Assembly: GCA_017514675.1 (NCBI GenBank)
Contig: JAFWIY010000017.1
Coordinates: 1-46,928 of the forward strand
Source: Candidatus Saccharimonadota bacterium
Lineage (GTDB): Bacteria > Patescibacteriota > Saccharimonadia > Saccharimonadales > Saccharimonadaceae
Length of the DNA: 46,928 bases
Reading direction: 5' to 3'
A model generated the notes under the pieces. It made no database searches, was not told the DNA's origin, and saw only the letters and a program-made list of their open reading frames with translations. Position 1 is the first letter of the stretch. Every line of letters begins with the position of its first letter. Shown piece after piece: positions 5,619 to 45,968 of this stretch. The translations under genes and the position numbers were made by a program.

Positions 5619-6556
5619 TTTTGCACGAATAGTTTCTTATCTAATTTTAGCTTATCCACAAAATTCGTAATCGGACGCACTTCTCTTGCCACCTTTTCCA
5701 TTTCGGTTTTCTCATCTAATTTCTTAAACACGCTAGGCGGTTCGAACGCGTCTTTACCGTCTTTTAGGCCGACTAGCAGCTTGTTTTCAAAGAATCCTAA
5801 CATCAGCTTACCTTCATGTTCATCTGCAAGCTCCATAATGTTATGCATAAAAGCCGGGTCTAACAAATAAAAAGCCTCAAATCCATCCTCGGAATACGTC
5901 TTAAAGCGCTTATTGAATTCAGGAGATTCTAATTCTATCTTGTGCATTTTGCGTCCAGATTCTTGCCTTCTCGCCGGGACCATATTTGCCCCGAAACCTT
6001 TTTCCGCCACCTCCAACCTAAAATTAAACTTTTTGTGGAATTCGAAAATCATGAATCGCCCCTTGAAAACAGTTACGTAAGTAGTATTGCCATCACTATC
6101 AGTATGTTCATCCTGAATATGAACATCTGCTTGCACAAAAGCCACGTCCTTATATTTTCCCATAGTCAAGTCATTTGAGCTATAGGTATCCCCAGTACGC
6201 ACCATCCGCGTAGCCAATAATATTTCCTTGGGCAGACCACGGGCATGATCATATTTCAGATGGGTAAAAATTTGCGCTAGCGTTTTCTCGACAAAATATG
6301 CCTTATAGACAGCGCGATAATTATTGAATTGCTTTCTAGTGGTAAAGGTGATAATAATAAAGCCCGCTATTCCTACCATGAAGCAAGTACATAGTAGCGT
6401 AAAAAAGAATTTAACAAGTAAAATCTGCGAGCGAACCTCTCCAGTCAACATGATTATCAAAGTCAAAAGTAAAGTAATCGCAAGACAAATCCAGATACCA
6501 CGCACAAGTTTATCTTTATAGATTTTTTTTGCAATCTCGACATTTATGAATTCCAT
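5615..6556 (-). CDS. DUF3137-like membrane protein
   Basis: A 313-residue protein with two membrane segments near the N-terminus (about residues 20-40 and 48-72) and a large soluble C-terminal part. The segment FKGRFMIFEFHKKF with the later FEAFYLLDPAFMHNIMELA and KLMLGFFENKLLVGL resembles DUF3137 proteins, whose function is unknown. The gene is leaderless: TGCTATAAT then 6 bases then ATG. It is the first gene of a two-gene operon with GH30. A predicted small RNA is encoded just upstream on the same strand. Confidence 0.7.
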   Translation of the reverse strand: MEFINVEIAKKIYKDKLVRGIWICLAITLLLTLIIMLTGEVRSQILLVKFFFTLLCTCFMVGIAGFIIITFTTRKQFNNYRAVYKAYFVEKTLAQIFTHLKYDHARGLPKEILLATRMVRTGDTYSSNDLTMGKYKDVAFVQADVHIQDEHTDSDGNTTYVTVFKGRFMIFEFHKKFNFRLEVAEKGFGANMVPARRQESGRKMHKIELESPEFNKRFKTYSEDGFEAFYLLDPAFMHNIMELADEHEGKLMLGFFENKLLVGLKDGKDAFEPPSVFKKLDEKTEMEKVAREVRPITNFVDKLKLDKKLFVQK

Positions 6557-40344: not shown

Positions 40345-41958
40345 TTGAGTAAATTATTTGAACAGTTGGTCAAAGTAAGGGGCCTTTCACCGGATTTCCT
40401 AAACCCTAAATATGAAGATTTGAAAGATCCGTTTTTGCTACCGGACATGAAAAAAGCCACCGCTCGCATCAAAACCGCCATCAAAAACCAAGAAAAAATC
40501 CTCATTTATGGCGACTATGATGTGGATGGTGTCACCGCGAGTACTCTGATGGAAGAGGCCTTAAAACTCGCCGGCGTCAAACCAGAGAATATAGAAATCA
40601 TGCTTCCAGATAGGTTCATAGATGGTTATGGCATGAGTCCAAAATTAATTAAAGCCGCTGAAAAATTCGGCGCTAACCTCGTTGTTACTGTTGACTGCGG
40701 CTCTCGCAACCACGAAATCGTAAACGAACTAAACGAGCTGAAAATTGACTGCATTATCACTGACCACCACGAAGTCGGCGAAACTCTCCCCGAGACCATA
40801 GCGGTCATTAACCCGAAACGAAAAGATTTTAAAGATGAAAACTTGAAAAACCTTGCCGGTGTTGGCGTAGCTTTTAAATTTGCCCAGGCTCTCGCGAAAG
40901 AAAACCTCATTCAAAACGGCCAAGAAAAATGGCTCCTTGACCTCGTTCTCGTTGGTACAATCTGCGACAGCATGCCCCTAACCGCCGAAAACCACATTCT
41001 CGGTTTTTACGGTCTAAAAGTTTTACAAAAAACCCGCCGCCCCGGCCTCAAGGAACTCATCAAATCCGCCAGGTTAAAAAATTTGAACTCCGAGACCATC
41101 GGCTTCGTAATTGGCCCGCGCTTAAACGCCGCCGGCCGCCTAGAAACCGCCAACCTCTCTTTAAATCTCCTCCGCGCCGACAATAACCCGACCGCCGCCG
41201 CTCTCGCCGAAAAACTCGAAACCCTGAACAAAAAAAGAAAAACTGAACAAAATCTTGCGCTAAAAGAGATTGAGGAGCGCCCCGAAACTACAGAGCCGGT
41301 CATTATTGAAACAGGGAAATGGCACGAGGGTATTCTCGGCATTGTCGCTGGCCGGCTAGTTGAGAAATACGAAAAGCCCGCCTTTGTCCTTTCTGAAACC
41401 GAAAACGGTATTTTTAAGGGGTCAGGCCGCAGTTTCGGCGATTTTAACCTCGCCGAGGCGCTAAATTTCGCCAAAGATTCCATAATCGGTGGAGGTGGCC
41501 ACGCCGCCGCCGCCGGTGTTAAGGTTGAACAAAAAAACCTCTATCGGTTTCGCGAGACAATCAACGAATACTATAAATCTCTCAAACTAAAAGACCAGAA
41601 AAAATACCTCAAAAAATCTGCCGATCTCGAAGTTGAAAACCTCGCCGACCTAAATCTTGATTTTCTAAACGAGCTAAAACAACTCGAACCCTTCGGAACA
41701 GGGAACGAAGAGCCGATTTTTCGCCTCAAAAACATCCAAATCGCCGAAATTAGAAAAATGGGCGCCGAAGAAAATCACCTCCGCCTCGATGTAAGAGATA
41801 AACACGGCAACACCCTTAAACTTGTCGCCTTTTTCGCCCCTGAAAACTGGCTGAATCTCGACTACGAAGCGAAAATCGAACCAATCATAAAACTCACCGA
41901 AAACGACTTTAACGGCATAAAATCCCCCGAAGCCCAAATCCTCGATATTATCATCTAG
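40345..41958 (+). CDS. recJ: Single-stranded-DNA exonuclease RecJ
   Basis: A 537-residue DHH-family 5'-3' exonuclease used in recombination and mismatch repair. Motif I DYDVDG (57-62), DCGS, TDHHE (the DHH motif, about 140-144) and the DHHA1 motif GGGGHAAAAG (about 382-391) are present, with an OB-fold C-terminal part. TTG start behind AGGGG. It is somewhat shorter than E. coli RecJ. Its last 11 codons (ending PEAQILDIII) are duplicated at 43175-43210. Confidence 0.94.
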   Translation: MSKLFEQLVKVRGLSPDFLNPKYEDLKDPFLLPDMKKATARIKTAIKNQEKILIYGDYDVDGVTASTLMEEALKLAGVKPENIEIMLPDRFIDGYGMSPKLIKAAEKFGANLVVTVDCGSRNHEIVNELNELKIDCIITDHHEVGETLPETIAVINPKRKDFKDENLKNLAGVGVAFKFAQALAKENLIQNGQEKWLLDLVLVGTICDSMPLTAENHILGFYGLKVLQKTRRPGLKELIKSARLKNLNSETIGFVIGPRLNAAGRLETANLSLNLLRADNNPTAAALAEKLETLNKKRKTEQNLALKEIEERPETTEPVIIETGKWHEGILGIVAGRLVEKYEKPAFVLSETENGIFKGSGRSFGDFNLAEALNFAKDSIIGGGGHAAAAGVKVEQKNLYRFRETINEYYKSLKLKDQKKYLKKSADLEVENLADLNLDFLNELKQLEPFGTGNEEPIFRLKNIQIAEIRKMGAEENHLRLDVRDKHGNTLKLVAFFAPENWLNLDYEAKIEPIIKLTENDFNGIKSPEAQILDIII

Positions 41959-42083
41959 CTATTGACTTTTTAAGCCACTTATGCTATAATGTAATCAGGA
42001 AGTTGTGAAACTCGCACCTTTTCAATTTGTTTAGGGTAATCCTAACTTTTTGGGGAGGGCAAAAAATTTAGGAGGTGTATATC
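41925..42083 (+). promoter_or_regulatory. Promoter and leader A (first copy of a duplicated block)
   Basis: TTGACT (41962-41967) and TGCTATAAT (TATAAT 41985-41990), spacer 17, drive a leader of about 85 bases. It has the element GCACCTTTTCAATT, then a small hairpin TTAGG-GTAAT-CCTAA, then CTTTTTGGGGAGGGC, then TTTAGGAGGT before the ATG. The block from 41925 to 42076 matches 43175-43327 with a few changes. The conserved leader may be regulatory. Confidence 0.65.
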
Positions 42084-42671
42084 ATGAAAAAAATGAAGGT
42101 TTTTAGGTGTACTATGGCAATACTGATTGCTTTATGCCTGTTGTTTGCAGGGTATGTAATGGGCGCCAATAGTTCCGCTAAAACAATCTCGCGTAGCGAG
42201 ATATTTACTAATGACTCAATCGTAGCTGTATTTGATAAAAATTATGGCACGCTTGCCTTTTCTGGAAACGGCATCGTTGAGCGCTGCGATGAGTGGATCA
42301 CAATAAGTCAAGAAGATCGTTGCGAAATTTATGACATTGTCTTTCATAATGGGATATCCGAGATAGCATCAAATGTAGTCTCTAATAGCTTCTTTCGAGA
42401 GCTCCCTAATCTGCAACGCATATACTTCGAGGATGATGTTAGTATAGGCGGCGGTGCTTTTGCGTGTAATCCTCGTTTGCGCCAGGTTACATTCTTCTCG
42501 AGCTGTCGAGAAATCGGATTCTATGCATTCGGAGAATGTCCCGAATTGCGTAATTTCGACTTCGCATCGTGCCACGAGATAGATAATATGGCCTTTGCCT
42601 TCTCGCCGGTGGATGAAATCTGGAGAGCGCGTTGCATTTATGATGTGACGCCAATCACGCCCACGCCCTAA
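42084..42671 (+). CDS. Secreted or anchored leucine-rich-repeat-like protein
   Basis: A 195-residue protein with an N-terminal hydrophobic segment (about 10-27, MAILIALCLLFAGYVMGA) usable as signal or anchor. The rest shows BspA/TpLRR-type repeats (leucine-rich repeat 5): IVFHNGISEIASNVVSNSFF, LPNLQRIYFEDDVSIGGGAF, NPRLRQVTFFSSCREIGFYAF, CPELRNFDFASCHEIDNMAF. These often mediate surface binding. The C-terminus ends in a Thr/Pro tail. The start at 42084 sits 7 bases after AGGAGGT; an in-frame ATG at 42075 overlaps that site. Own promoter, leader and terminator. Confidence 0.75.
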   Translation: MKKMKVFRCTMAILIALCLLFAGYVMGANSSAKTISRSEIFTNDSIVAVFDKNYGTLAFSGNGIVERCDEWITISQEDRCEIYDIVFHNGISEIASNVVSNSFFRELPNLQRIYFEDDVSIGGGAFACNPRLRQVTFFSSCREIGFYAFGECPELRNFDFASCHEIDNMAFAFSPVDEIWRARCIYDVTPITPTP

Positions 42672-42677
42672 ACCAAA

Positions 42678-42706
42678 CCCCCGCACCACTCGGCGCGGGG
42701 GTTTTA
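42678..42706 (+). terminator. Terminator A (same core as terminator B)
   Basis: CCCCCGC pairs with GCGGGGG around ACCACTCGGC and is followed by TTTT. The 22-base core at 42679-42700 is identical to 43665-43686 after the second unit. Confidence 0.9.
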
Positions 42707-42814
42707 ACATCCTAAAATTATTTTAAGCAGAGCGGAATAGCTTTTAAGCCTAGGCGGAATGGCAATTTTTCCAGAGGTGAAAATGCTCATGCATACTTTC
42801 AGGGGTCTTGGGGG

Positions 42815-42844
42815 TTGAAATTATTTTTCTAGTGTGATTATAAT
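42815..42844 (+). promoter_or_regulatory. Promoter of RNA 1
   Basis: TTGAAA (42815-42820) and TATAAT (42839-42844) with an 18-base spacer; start near 42851. Confidence 0.65.
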
Positions 42845-42849
42845 AGCGG

Positions 42850-43162
42850 CGGGTTTGGGAGAAGTTTGTTTTCGATTCGTAGGTCCTGGGTGGTGGCGTT
42901 GGAGCCATAAACTCTCAACGAGGAGCTGCAAAAAGTAATGTGCTAGGTAAATTAGGGTCGCAGACGTCCCCAGTGATTTGTCAAAAACAAAAAGCGAAAG
43001 GAGTCTAGTATGCTAGAAATAGAATGTTATTTCCGCATTACGAAGAAGCCCAAGACAAAAAAAGTTACTGTCCAGATCGAATCTGAACAGTAACACCCAA
43101 ACACACGCGATGCCCTAGCCATCGCACCTACCATCATAATACACCACCTTCCCAAAAACCGC
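42850..43162 (+). ncRNA. Structured RNA 1 with a mini-ORF
   Basis: The predicted RNA starts CGGGTTTGGGAGAAG, which pairs imperfectly with CTTCCCAAAAACCG at 43148-43161, closing the molecule. Inner stems include CTGGG/CCCAG, GTTACTGT..CAGAT with ATCTG..ACAGTAAC (43063-43093) and GCGATG/CATCGC (about 43107-43125). RNA 2 (43975-44165) has the same order: similar 5' end (CGGGTTTGGGAGAAG against CGGGTTGGAGAAAC), a mini-ORF or relic, a hairpin over its stop, and a closing 3' strand. No known family is recognised. Confidence 0.5.
43010..43093 (+). CDS. 27-aa mini-protein inside RNA 1
   Basis: GAAAGGAG precedes an ATG that opens a 27-codon frame beginning MLEIECYFRITKKPK and continuing TKKVTVQIESEQ. 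The TAA stop lies in the 3' arm of a strong hairpin. KTKKVTVQIE aligns with KTKRVTIHLE of the remnant in RNA 2. Conservation at the peptide level with differing bases suggests that the peptide is, or was, selected. Confidence 0.45.
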   Translation: MLEIECYFRITKKPKTKKVTVQIESEQ

Positions 43163-43174
43163 AAGCATTTTAGT

Positions 43175-43335
43175 CCCCGAAGCCCAAATCCTCGATATTA
43201 TTATCTAACTATTGACAAATTATCGCGCTTGTGCTATAATGTAAGTATAAGTTCAAAAAACTAGCACCTTTTCAATTCGTTTAGGGTAAATCCTAACTTT
43301 TTGGGGAGGGCAAAAATTTTAGGAGGTAAAAAACA
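43175..43335 (+). repeat. Duplicated recJ 3' end plus promoter and leader B
   Basis: 43175-43210 repeats the end of recJ (same PEAQILDIII codons, one synonymous change, stop TAG to TAA). It runs on into TTGACA (43212-43217), TGCTATAAT (TATAAT 43235-43240, spacer 17) and the same leader elements as copy A (GCACCTTTTCAATT, TTAGGGTAA.TCCTAA, GGGGAGGGC, AGGAGGT). The copy extends to 43327. It shows that unit B arose by duplication of the segment starting inside recJ. Confidence 0.85.
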
Positions 43336-43656
43336 ATGTTTTCAAAAAAGTTCAGAAATTTTTGTAAAGGAACTTTCGTTGTAGTACTCACTACTGCTGC
43401 TTGTGTGGCTATACTTTATGGGCTGCGTTTTCTCATCGTTGAGGCTATCCCTTGGATGCAGTCGCATCCTTGGCGACCTTTTTCGTCCATGTCGCAACAC
43501 ATGTCTCAGAGTGAGTATGTGACATTCGTAGTTATCATTAATATTCTTGTTTGTATAGTGTTTGGCATTCTCTACGCAGGGTTGCTGTGTATACTATCGG
43601 ACAAACAAGATCGGCTATCGTCTAATGACGATCATGAGACCACCGAACAGCCCTAA
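43336..43656 (+). CDS. Small two-pass membrane protein (unit B)
   Basis: A 106-residue protein with membrane segments at about 13-36 and 62-86. An outer loop is rich in Trp, Pro, Ser and Met (IPWMQSHPWRPFSSMSQHMSQSEY), and the C-terminus is acidic (DKQDRLSSNDDHETTEQP). Not recognised and not visibly homologous to the protein of unit A, although leader and terminator are shared. TTTAGGAGGT lies 9 bases before the start. Confidence 0.65.
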   Translation: MFSKKFRNFCKGTFVVVLTTAACVAILYGLRFLIVEAIPWMQSHPWRPFSSMSQHMSQSEYVTFVVIINILVCIVFGILYAGLLCILSDKQDRLSSNDDHETTEQP

Positions 43657-43660
43657 ACGA

Positions 43661-43692
43661 AAAACCCCGCACCACTCGGCGCGGGGTTTTTC
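43661..43692 (+). terminator. Terminator B
   Basis: CCCCGC (43665-43670) pairs with GCGGGG (43681-43686), with A before and TTTTT after; same core as terminator A. Confidence 0.9.
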
Positions 43693-43708
43693 ACGCTCAG
43701 GGAACACC

Positions 43709-43879
43709 GGTTAAATCTTAAAACCTAATTTGAGTTCGCATCTTTTGTGAACCCGATAAAAATAAAAGTTTCACAGGGCGAGTACGAAACTGCTAATTCC
43801 GGCGCAGCCCTGCCTGAAACTTTTATTTTTATCCGGCGTGAGCAAAACGCGAACGAGGATTAGGTTTTAAGATTTAACC
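43709..43879. repeat. 171-bp long inverted repeat
   Basis: Outer arms of 21 bp are perfect (43709-43729 with 43859-43879). Then come GTTCGC/GCGAAC (43734-43739 with 43849-43854), a perfect 19-bp stem GATAAAAATAAAAGTTTCA (43755-43773) with its complement at 43815-43833, and CAGGGC/GCCCTG. The loop is only about 27 bases. No gene and no flanking direct repeat are seen. Its architecture parallels the inverted repeat at 29093-29227 with different sequence. Confidence 0.85.
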
Positions 43880-43940
43880 CTAGGCGTTTTGATTTTTACC
43901 GCAAGCGTTTTGGGTTTTGTAGATTTTCGTTTAAGGGGGG

Positions 43941-43970
43941 TTGTAATTTCCGTTAATATGTGCCTATACT
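43941..43970 (+). promoter_or_regulatory. Promoter of RNA 2
   Basis: TTGTAA (43941-43946) and TATACT (43965-43970) with an 18-base spacer; start near 43977. Confidence 0.5.
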
Positions 43971-43974
43971 ATGT

Positions 43975-44165
43975 GCGGGTTGGAGAAACTTTTGGTTGGT
44001 GAATAATATAGATCCTCCGCGTAGTAAGCGGACCATGGGCAAAGTAGTTGCGACGAAATCTCTAGTCCGCTTATTCTTAAAATCAAGTTCGGTTCTAAAA
44101 CTAAAAGAGTTACCATTCACCTAGAGTGGTAACTCTCCAAACCAAAGCGGGTTTCTAGGGCCCGC
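43975..44165 (+). ncRNA. Structured RNA 2 with degenerate mini-ORF
   Basis: The ends pair in three blocks: GCGGG (43975-43979) with CCCGC (44161-44165), AGAAAC (43984-43989) with GTTTCT (44151-44156), and TTTGGTTGG (43991-43999) with CCAAACCAAA (44137-44146). Inside are TCCGC/GCGGA (44013-44029) and AGAGTTACCA/TGGTAACTCT (44106-44135). A frame ending ILKIKFGSKTKRVTIHLEW overlaps the last hairpin but has no start codon; where RNA 1 has TCTAGT-ATG this copy has TCTAGT-CCG. An alternative ATG at 44034 reads another frame. Confidence 0.5.
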
Positions 44166-44228
44166 GCCTAATCTAAGTATAAGTAACATGGTATAAACTG
44201 TCAACGCCCATATGCTATAATAATACTA

Positions 44229-45968
44229 ATGCTAAAAGAGTATTATCGCTATATTAGGGAGTATTGGCAGATAGCGGAGTTGAACCGCTGGTATTTTGCG
44301 CTGAACTTTATCGCCTGCTTACTATACAAAGCTTTCGCGGTAGCGTTGCCGTTTATCGCCGGGGTTATCGTAGATGCTCTGACCGCCAAAAACTCAGCCG
44401 AAACTTATCGCTTCATCATTATTTATTTCGTAATTTATTTATGCTATCGCGGAGCGATATATTTTTCTTGGCGGGCTTATTCGTGGAACGCCAACTATAG
44501 TTATCGCCACATGCACAAAAAGATTTTCGCCAAACTCACCAACATTGATGACAACTTCACTCGCAAAATCAAAAAAGGCCGTTTTATGAACACAGTAAAC
44601 GATGACCTAATTAGCGTAGGCGACATGAGCGATGAATTATCGGAGCTTGCCACTACTTTATTGCAAGTGGCAGTGGTGCTAATTATCGTAGGTATTTACA
44701 ACCCGCTTTTTGCTATTCTGATTGTGATATCGCTAATTTTATATGTAGCAGCCAGAAACTATGCCGACCGCAAAATGAATCACTATTGGTACAAGACCAG
44801 GAAAGAAGAAGATGAGTATAGCAACTTTATCAGCCAAGTTGCGACCGGGCTTCAGGAGGTCAAAACCTTCAACATGCTGCCAAAATTAAAGCGCAAACTC
44901 AGCGCAATTAACTATCGCTACAACAAGCATTACGAACGTCAGCGACATTATGTGAGCCTACGCGATACTGATATAGATATTCTGTATTATGTTTTCCAAG
45001 TTTTGCTATACATTTTACTTGCGGTACTGTTTTTCGGTGGGCAAGTAGAACTGGGCGTGGTAGTAATGATTGTGGCTTATCATGAGTCTATCACGAGTCA
45101 CGCCAGCGATTTTATTGATGCCGCCAAAGAAATCCGCCTCGCCAATGCTTCGGTCAAGCGGCTTGGCGATATTCTTCATTACCAACCAGAGGAAAATTAC
45201 GAATTTGGCCGCACTAGTATTGAACATCTAGATGGTAAAATTGAGTTCAAAAAAGTTTCATTAAAAATCAAAAACAAACCAATTTTATCTAATCTTTCTT
45301 TTGCAATTAAACCCCACGAAACCGTGGCGATTGTTGGCTTCCCGGGAGCAGGAAAGACCATGCTCATAAATCTATTACTGCGCCTCCGCCGCCCTACTAG
45401 TGGCAAAATCTTATTAGACGATATTGAAATCGGCGAATTTTCTAAGGAGATTTATACTTCATCTGTAGCAGTGGCTAACCAGGCACCGTTTATTTTTAAC
45501 ACTACCATTCGCAACAATTTGGATTTTGTGGATACCGATATCAAGGCCCAAATCAAAGCTTGCAAAACCGCCGGCGTGCATGATTTTATTCAGACTTTGC
45601 CACAAGGTTACAACACAGTATTGAGAGAAAATGCCGCCAATGTATCCGGCGGGCAAAAACAAATGATTTCCATCGCCCGCACTATTTTAACCGATGCCGA
45701 GATACTTTTGCTTGATGATATCACCACCTCGCTAGACCCGGACACCGCTACTTTTATTCCGCAACTAATTAAAAATCTCAAAAAAGACCACACCGTAATT
45801 ATGGTTACTAGAAAACCAGACCTCATGGCTCTGGCCGACAAAGTAATTGTCTTAAACCGCGGCAAAATTGAAGCAATCGGCACACCCAGAAGCCTCTTCG
45901 ACAAGAGTAAAACTTACCGCGCTCTGCAGTTTGCCTCATCGGATCTAGGAAGGAGGAAAGGTGCCTAA
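44229..45968 (+). CDS. ABC exporter half-transporter (membrane plus ATPase)
   Basis: A 579-residue exporter subunit: six membrane segments over about residues 20-290, then an ATP-binding domain. Walker A reads GFPGAGKT (about 374-381), the signature VSGGQKQ is near 478 and Walker B ILLLDDITTSLD near 498. The catalytic position after Walker B is D-I rather than D-E (LLLDDIT), and VTRKPD replaces the usual H-loop, so this is likely the degenerate half of a heterodimer. Leaderless (TGCTATAAT, 7 bases, ATG). The partner gene overlaps by 8 bases. Substrate unknown. Confidence 0.9.
   Translation: MLKEYYRYIREYWQIAELNRWYFALNFIACLLYKAFAVALPFIAGVIVDALTAKNSAETYRFIIIYFVIYLCYRGAIYFSWRAYSWNANYSYRHMHKKIFAKLTNIDDNFTRKIKKGRFMNTVNDDLISVGDMSDELSELATTLLQVAVVLIIVGIYNPLFAILIVISLILYVAARNYADRKMNHYWYKTRKEEDEYSNFISQVATGLQEVKTFNMLPKLKRKLSAINYRYNKHYERQRHYVSLRDTDIDILYYVFQVLLYILLAVLFFGGQVELGVVVMIVAYHESITSHASDFIDAAKEIRLANASVKRLGDILHYQPEENYEFGRTSIEHLDGKIEFKKVSLKIKNKPILSNLSFAIKPHETVAIVGFPGAGKTMLINLLLRLRRPTSGKILLDDIEIGEFSKEIYTSSVAVANQAPFIFNTTIRNNLDFVDTDIKAQIKACKTAGVHDFIQTLPQGYNTVLRENAANVSGGQKQMISIARTILTDAEILLLDDITTSLDPDTATFIPQLIKNLKKDHTVIMVTRKPDLMALADKVIVLNRGKIEAIGTPRSLFDKSKTYRALQFASSDLGRRKGA

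Follow-up and report, generated by a model that had tools for sequence, protein, structure and literature searches.

The two structured RNAs that were originally predicted side by side in a Saccharibacteria genome belong to a multicopy family of cassettes in which an mRNA with a very short reading frame faces a predicted small antisense RNA, and these cassettes probably function as type I toxin-antitoxin systems. The fuller account of the family, as a new type I group limited to one genus of Saccharibacteria (Patescibacteria), with a β-hairpin toxin, an antisense terminator lodged inside the toxin ORF and an mRNA silenced by a leader that mimics both the loop and the linker of the antisense RNA, stands in our judgement at about even chances. 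The original prediction of paired structured RNAs with mini-ORFs thus captured their relatedness and a conserved ORF, but was incomplete: it saw only two copies, whereas this genome has at least five, and it missed the antisense partner. All coordinates below refer to the window, i.e. the 46,928-nt stretch of contig JAFWIY010000017.1 that was analysed.

Positions 42850-44165 of the window contain two structured plus-strand units, unit 1 (RNA1) and unit 2 (RNA2), each of which folds more stably than any of its dinucleotide shuffles (z -3.87 for unit 1 and -5.30 for unit 2), in agreement with the proposal of two related structured RNAs at these places. The similar 5' starts (CGGGTTTGGGAG and CGGGTTGGAGAA), the paired ends, the stop codon within a hairpin (43064-43094 in unit 1 and ~44106-44134 in unit 2) and the aligned peptide ends are all present, and neither unit has a match in Rfam, as expected of RNAs said to belong to no known family. 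Predicted -10 boxes precede both starts, TATAAT ending at 42844 and TATACT ending at 43970. In unit 1, the first of these is part of a promoter (TTGAAA-18-TATAAT, 42815-42844, plus strand) that matches the consensus at 11/12 positions and has equivalents upstream of many relatives. The predicted mRNA 1 (42850-43125, start at ~42850), defined by its fold and by alignment with 58 full-length relatives, consists of a long structured leader, the mini-ORF and a 3' hairpin. Its 5' end, CGGGTTTGGG (42850-42859), is the partner of CCCAAAC at 43096-43102, as judged by a permutation test of pairing, and further along the leader lies an element, GTGCTAGGTA (42940-42949), a mimic of the antisense loop with complementarity to that of the mRNA 3' hairpin, a pairing backed by covariation. 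Then come a Shine-Dalgarno (SD) sequence, AAAGGAG (42997-43003), predicted to be partly sequestered, mini-ORF 1 (43010-43093), encoding a putative toxin of 27 aa, MLEIECYFRITKKPKTKKVTVQIESEQ (peptide HMM E 6e-13), and the 3' hairpin GCGATGCCCTAGCCATCGC (43107-43125), which is the complement of the antisense 5' hairpin and covaries in all 7 helix pairs. As far as its sequence can tell, RNA1 is a complete module.

Unit 2 is a relic in which the start of the peptide was lost and the antisense RNA was kept. Its mRNA (43976-44165), preceded by a promoter with 9/12 consensus positions (TTGTAA-18-TATACT, 43941-43970), is a degenerate copy that, by BLASTN and alignment to its sister C21 in this genome, lacks ~90 nt, from the last part of the leader through the SD and start codon into the first codons. 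The start codon had indeed been recognized as lost, but its description as CCG in place of ATG was too simple for a deletion of this size. What remains of mini-ORF 2 (44067-44132), PLILKIKFGSKTKRVTIHLEW, has no start codon and is matched by the peptide HMM at positions 6-24 only. On the 3' side of the cassettes (~43125-43175 and 44165-44200 in the window), no intrinsic terminator of the forward mRNA was recognized, and its 3' end may be generated by Rho, by collision with antisense transcription or by processing.

A different picture emerges on the minus strand. In both units, a terminator scan identified the hairpin followed by a T run (GTTACTGTTCAGATTCGATCTGGACAGTAACTTTTTTT) as an intrinsic (Rho-independent) terminator on that strand, and a sigma-70 promoter lies directly to the right of each unit in the same orientation. 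The stop-codon hairpin, earlier taken for a feature of the plus-strand RNA, is thus chiefly an antisense terminator, and together with the adjacent promoter it implies that each unit encodes a ~75-nt antisense RNA under its own control. Antisense RNA 1 (43056-43128, minus strand), the putative antitoxin, starts with its 5' hairpin, whose loop is CUAG, continues through a linker to the terminator hairpin (43094-43064) and its U-run, and scores 71 bits (E 2.7e-16) against the covariance model described below, in whose training set this copy was included. Its promoter, TTGCGG-17-TATTAT (43136-43164), has a weak -35 box and 8/12 consensus positions; the 3' end formerly assigned to RNA1, at 43162, falls within it (43164-43136). 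Antisense RNA 2 (44101-44168, minus strand) is intact, with 65 bits (E 1.5e-14), likewise for a copy in the training set, and is preceded by a promoter with 11/12 consensus positions (TTGACA-17-TATACT, 44176-44204). The same order of elements, i.e. 5' hairpin with CUAG loop, short GGUUUGG linker and terminator hairpin, characterizes the antisense RNA, and the loop reads CTAG in 93/98 family copies. The terminator sits within the last third of the mini-ORF, so placed that the KTKK codons are the complement of its U-run. At least 9/12 consensus positions are found at the antisense promoter in 76/98 copies, compared with 2/93 control stretches.

The extent of the family was charted by a DNA search of 60 relatives, which gave further cassette copies, and by a covariance model, built from 12 aligned antisense RNAs with the promoter excluded, with which 174 Saccharibacteria genomes, all of this genus, were searched. 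The model has matches in 58 of these, amounting to ~100 copies, some of them held out of training, with a maximum of six per genome. The position of many matches, at most a few hundred bases from a contig end, suggests that short-read assemblies are interrupted by near-identical copies and that the numbers of copies given here are too low. No convincing homologue of the antisense RNA or of the peptide HMM was found outside the genus in sampled genomes of the phylum and order; two weak matches there were discarded, one because it is internal to a 525-codon frame (G488) and the other because there is no mini-ORF nearby (G715). A highly diverged cassette relative (L007 1501-1800, G001:C6), with the peptide MTIRINLLCIVFPGRKRRSKKSS and an antisense match of 15 bits, suggests that the family is wider than the model detects. 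Across 92 copies, 90.3% of alignment cells at the paired positions of the antisense RNA do pair and two-sided changes occur in 17/18 pairs, with 327 cells showing two-sided and 24 one-sided changes, a value reached by 0/500 shuffles; this alignment was fitted to the model, and the unfitted alignment of 12 sequences agrees. Homologous loci with compensatory changes, which a covariance model had been expected to reveal, thus exist in the genus. The scarcity of G-U changes is what would be expected if the hairpins must form on both strands.

The mini-ORF has 24-28 codons, within the limit of <60 codons set for the ORF of a type I system, and a spacing from its SD that is constant in the family. 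Some SD-preceded ORF runs into the antisense terminator in 82/98 copies, and a strict rule finds the canonical start and stop positions kept in 73. Typical products are MEIEFYFRFKLKPKTKKVTVVVDEQ, MSIEFNFKIKFGSKTKKITIRVEW and MRRRFVFALVVRLFRKEITIRIEW. Over the codons ahead of the antisense overlap, pN/pS is 0.17-0.29 in frame (uncorrected values from non-independent pairs), against eight out-of-frame values of 0.64-3.1, six of which are at 1.2-1.4. The peptide frame is therefore conserved, another point on which the original prediction could be checked, and this ratio and the constant SD mark the mini-ORF as a real gene. In the peptide, charged and hydrophobic residues alternate, with a moment of 2.31 at 170 degrees compared with 1.04 in shuffled sequences (0.65 at 100 degrees), a mean net charge of +2.7 and a mean GRAVY of -0.4. 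AlphaFold2 modelled one 34-residue member, from a single sequence and with uneven confidence, as a two-stranded hairpin (pLDDT 83, pTM 0.35). The peptide is thus predicted to be a cationic, amphipathic β-hairpin, and by its GRAVY, strand-type amphipathicity and AlphaFold2 model it is not a hydrophobic α-helical transmembrane segment of the kind seen in membrane type I toxins. It has no family match in Pfam, NCBIfam or PADLOC; two matches to Integrin_B_tail in Pfam were at chance level (best E 0.08) and were dismissed. Strong purifying selection, the cationic amphipathic strand pattern and a sequence that is less hydrophobic than, and atypical for, a type I toxin would also suit a small protein that is not a toxin, a conserved β-hairpin that serves in housekeeping, at the surface or in interaction with a host and whose abundance is controlled by the antisense RNA and by folding of the mRNA. 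We consider this unlikely, since a patchy distribution with up to six dispersed copies fits a toxin better, as do copies in which the ORF is dead and the antisense RNA intact, the reverse never being seen.

This asymmetry is best appreciated from the coupling between the two genes. Independent searches placed 88 of 90 peptide-HMM matches on antisense matches, the exceptions being a copy with a divergent antisense RNA (G118:C7, E 0.008) and a decayed copy in which the antisense RNA is only weak (G086:C9). Among the copies examined, no intact ORF was seen without its antisense partner, whereas in ~20 copies the ORF is broken or missing and the antisense RNA intact, with an antisense promoter that averages 9.92 of 12 consensus positions compared with 9.6 in intact copies. 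Probable frameshifts with an intact antisense RNA were also noticed at or near the A-run of the KTKK codons in three copies (G018:C41 at ~31717, L050; G123:C11, L096; G089:C7, L124), and could be phase variation, decay or assembly errors. That the antisense RNA outlasts the ORF in ~20 copies, and that the terminator U-run falls on the KTKK codons, might be taken to mean that the antisense RNA is itself the functional product, a multicopy trans-acting sRNA, with the ORF a passenger constrained by the terminator. Such a scenario is very improbable, as the ORF is under strong selection in codons beyond the antisense RNA and has a conserved SD and forward promoter. Moreover, the antisense RNAs of this genome pair far better with their own mRNA (-131 to -145 kcal/mol) than with those of other copies (-22 to -79 kcal/mol), which implies that protection across copies would be possible but weaker.

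Several lines of covariation bear on how the mRNA of a toxin-antitoxin cassette might be kept inactive. The GGGUUGG at the mRNA 5' end pairs with CCAACC between the ORF and the 3' hairpin, more stably within a copy than between copies (-13.4 vs -10.9 kcal/mol; 0/500 permutations). The CUAG leader element is found in 54/56 leaders, where 15 would be expected, and it too pairs better with the mRNA 3' loop of its own copy (-7.75 vs -6.07 kcal/mol; 0/300 permutations), a coevolution that persists when only CUAG pairs are considered (0/300). Pairing of the same leader element with the antisense loop, another possibility that was considered, shows no coevolution (247/300 and 283/300 permutations equal or better). 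This pattern of pairing implies that both elements by which the antisense RNA would recognize its target, the loop and the linker, have copies in the leader. Coevolution between the SD and an anti-SD is weak (1/500 permutations), and the mean unpaired probability is 0.28 at the SD compared with 0.36 over the mRNA. From this covariation, we infer that the full-length mRNA silences itself.

These observations can be assembled into a working model. In a cassette of ~450 bp, one promoter would produce an mRNA with a ~160-nt leader and a mini-ORF for the cationic amphipathic peptide, and a promoter at the opposite end a ~75-nt antisense RNA that stops at the intrinsic terminator within the ORF. As long as the mRNA is full-length, its 5' GGGUUGG would hold the 3' region, the leader CUAG would kiss the loop of the 3' hairpin and an upstream anti-SD would partly hold the SD; with all three in place the mRNA should be translationally silent. 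Trimming of the 3' end, or opening of the fold, would expose the 3' sites to the antisense RNA, whose CUAG loop (a YUNR motif) and linker would pair with them in the cell and either block translation or mark the duplex for RNase III. Loss of the antisense RNA would then release the peptide, most likely to the harm of the cell, through the membrane or another target. The succession of an inert full-length mRNA, its activation once the 3' end is gone and its neutralization by antisense RNA is modelled on hok/sok and AapA/IsoA (PMC6733600).

In AapA/IsoA, the mRNA is ~225 nt long, with a long-distance 5'-3' interaction and transient anti-SD hairpins, and its ORF of ~30 codons is overlapped by a cis antisense RNA of ~80 nt, the whole being present in several chromosomal copies (PMC6733600). 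The Saccharibacteria cassette resembles this system of Helicobacter and Campylobacter in layout, down to the covarying 5'-3' pairing of the mRNA, but has its antisense terminator inside the ORF, a leader CUAG loop mimic and a range of one genus; its peptide, predicted to be a β-hairpin, appears unrelated to AapA by searches of Pfam and NCBIfam, where it has no match. The hok/sok locus, found on plasmid R1 and enterobacterial chromosomes, has a stable mRNA, whose two ends pair and thereby render it inert, and an antisense RNA with a YUNR-type loop. Pairing mRNA ends and a YUNR-type antisense recognition loop are common to the cassette, in which, unlike in hok/sok, the antisense RNA covers the end of the ORF and the 3' region instead of the leader, and the peptide is half the size and is predicted not to be a transmembrane helix. 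Fst/par of pAD1 and Ldr/Rdl likewise consist of a small peptide gene and a facing antisense RNA, with U-turn (YUNR) recognition loops. The cassette shares the facing arrangement; in par, however, both RNAs end at one bidirectional terminator that lies outside the ORF, and the peptide is a hydrophobic helix. A review describes membrane type I toxins as α-helical (PMC8309996), unlike the peptide predicted here. The cassette is assigned to no named type I family. Paired ends, a short reading frame and a stop codon in a hairpin are also reminiscent of tmRNA, but the units have no tRNA-like domain and do have an SD, a start codon and an antisense RNA; the region gave no RF00023 match and the tmRNA of this genome lies elsewhere. 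A coincidence of two unrelated hairpins is ruled out by the homologues, the covariation and the coding selection.

Within the genome, the copies are discrete dispersed units of ~350-470 bp with sharp shared borders and differing flanks. In the window, both units, together with two small genes, lie between recJ and an ABC transporter gene. The goat-ileum Saccharibacteria genome L177 shows the same succession of priA, a 96-aa ORF, recJ and the ABC transporter, with a recJ-ABC gap of 172 nt (5829-6001) compared with 2.27 kb in the window (41958-44229), which implies gain or loss of both cassettes at this place. By the ABC transporter, the closest named relatives (53-66% identity) come largely from the ruminant gut. 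The sharp borders and the short gap in the relative would also be compatible with a mobile cassette, MITE-like or plasmid-derived, that uses its RNA pair for its own maintenance or copy control. To this we give hardly any credence as a separate explanation: no transposase, integrase or terminal repeats were recognized at the unit borders, two exact patterns, a search of weak scope, had no match in viral contigs, and mobility is compatible with a toxin-antitoxin role and does not exclude it. The surroundings of the units have features of their own. In a tandem duplication (41925-42708 and 43175-43694), the recJ end is repeated together with a strong promoter, the conserved leader GCACCTTTTCAATTYGTTTAGGGTAA...CCTAACTTTTTGGGGAGGGC and a terminator rich in GC, around two small ORFs that are unrelated to each other (42093-42671, 43336-43656); the duplicated leader, which has no Rfam match, may be another structured RNA. 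Immediately upstream of unit 2 lies a MITE-like nested inverted repeat of ~170 bp (43709-43879), with outer arms of 36 nt (83% complementary) and inner arms of 22 nt (95%).

According to a 2025 study (PMC12390103), type I systems had been known only from Proteobacteria, Firmicutes and Tenericutes, to which it added Cyanobacteria. A literature search, whose coverage did not extend to most subscription journals and preprints, found no report of a type I toxin-antitoxin in Saccharibacteria or the candidate phyla radiation. For annotation, the cassettes illustrate how reading a 'structured RNA with a mini-ORF' on one strand can hide an antisense gene. A β-hairpin toxin, if confirmed, would add a new kind of peptide to the type I class, and the antisense-mimicking leader offers a testable model for the silence of an mRNA. 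Should the toxin-antitoxin assignment hold, the type I class would gain a multicopy family in the genome-reduced, epibiotic Saccharibacteria and so reach into a very large group of tiny, parasitic bacteria, and one would have to ask why as many as six such cassettes are retained in genomes of 0.6-0.9 Mb.
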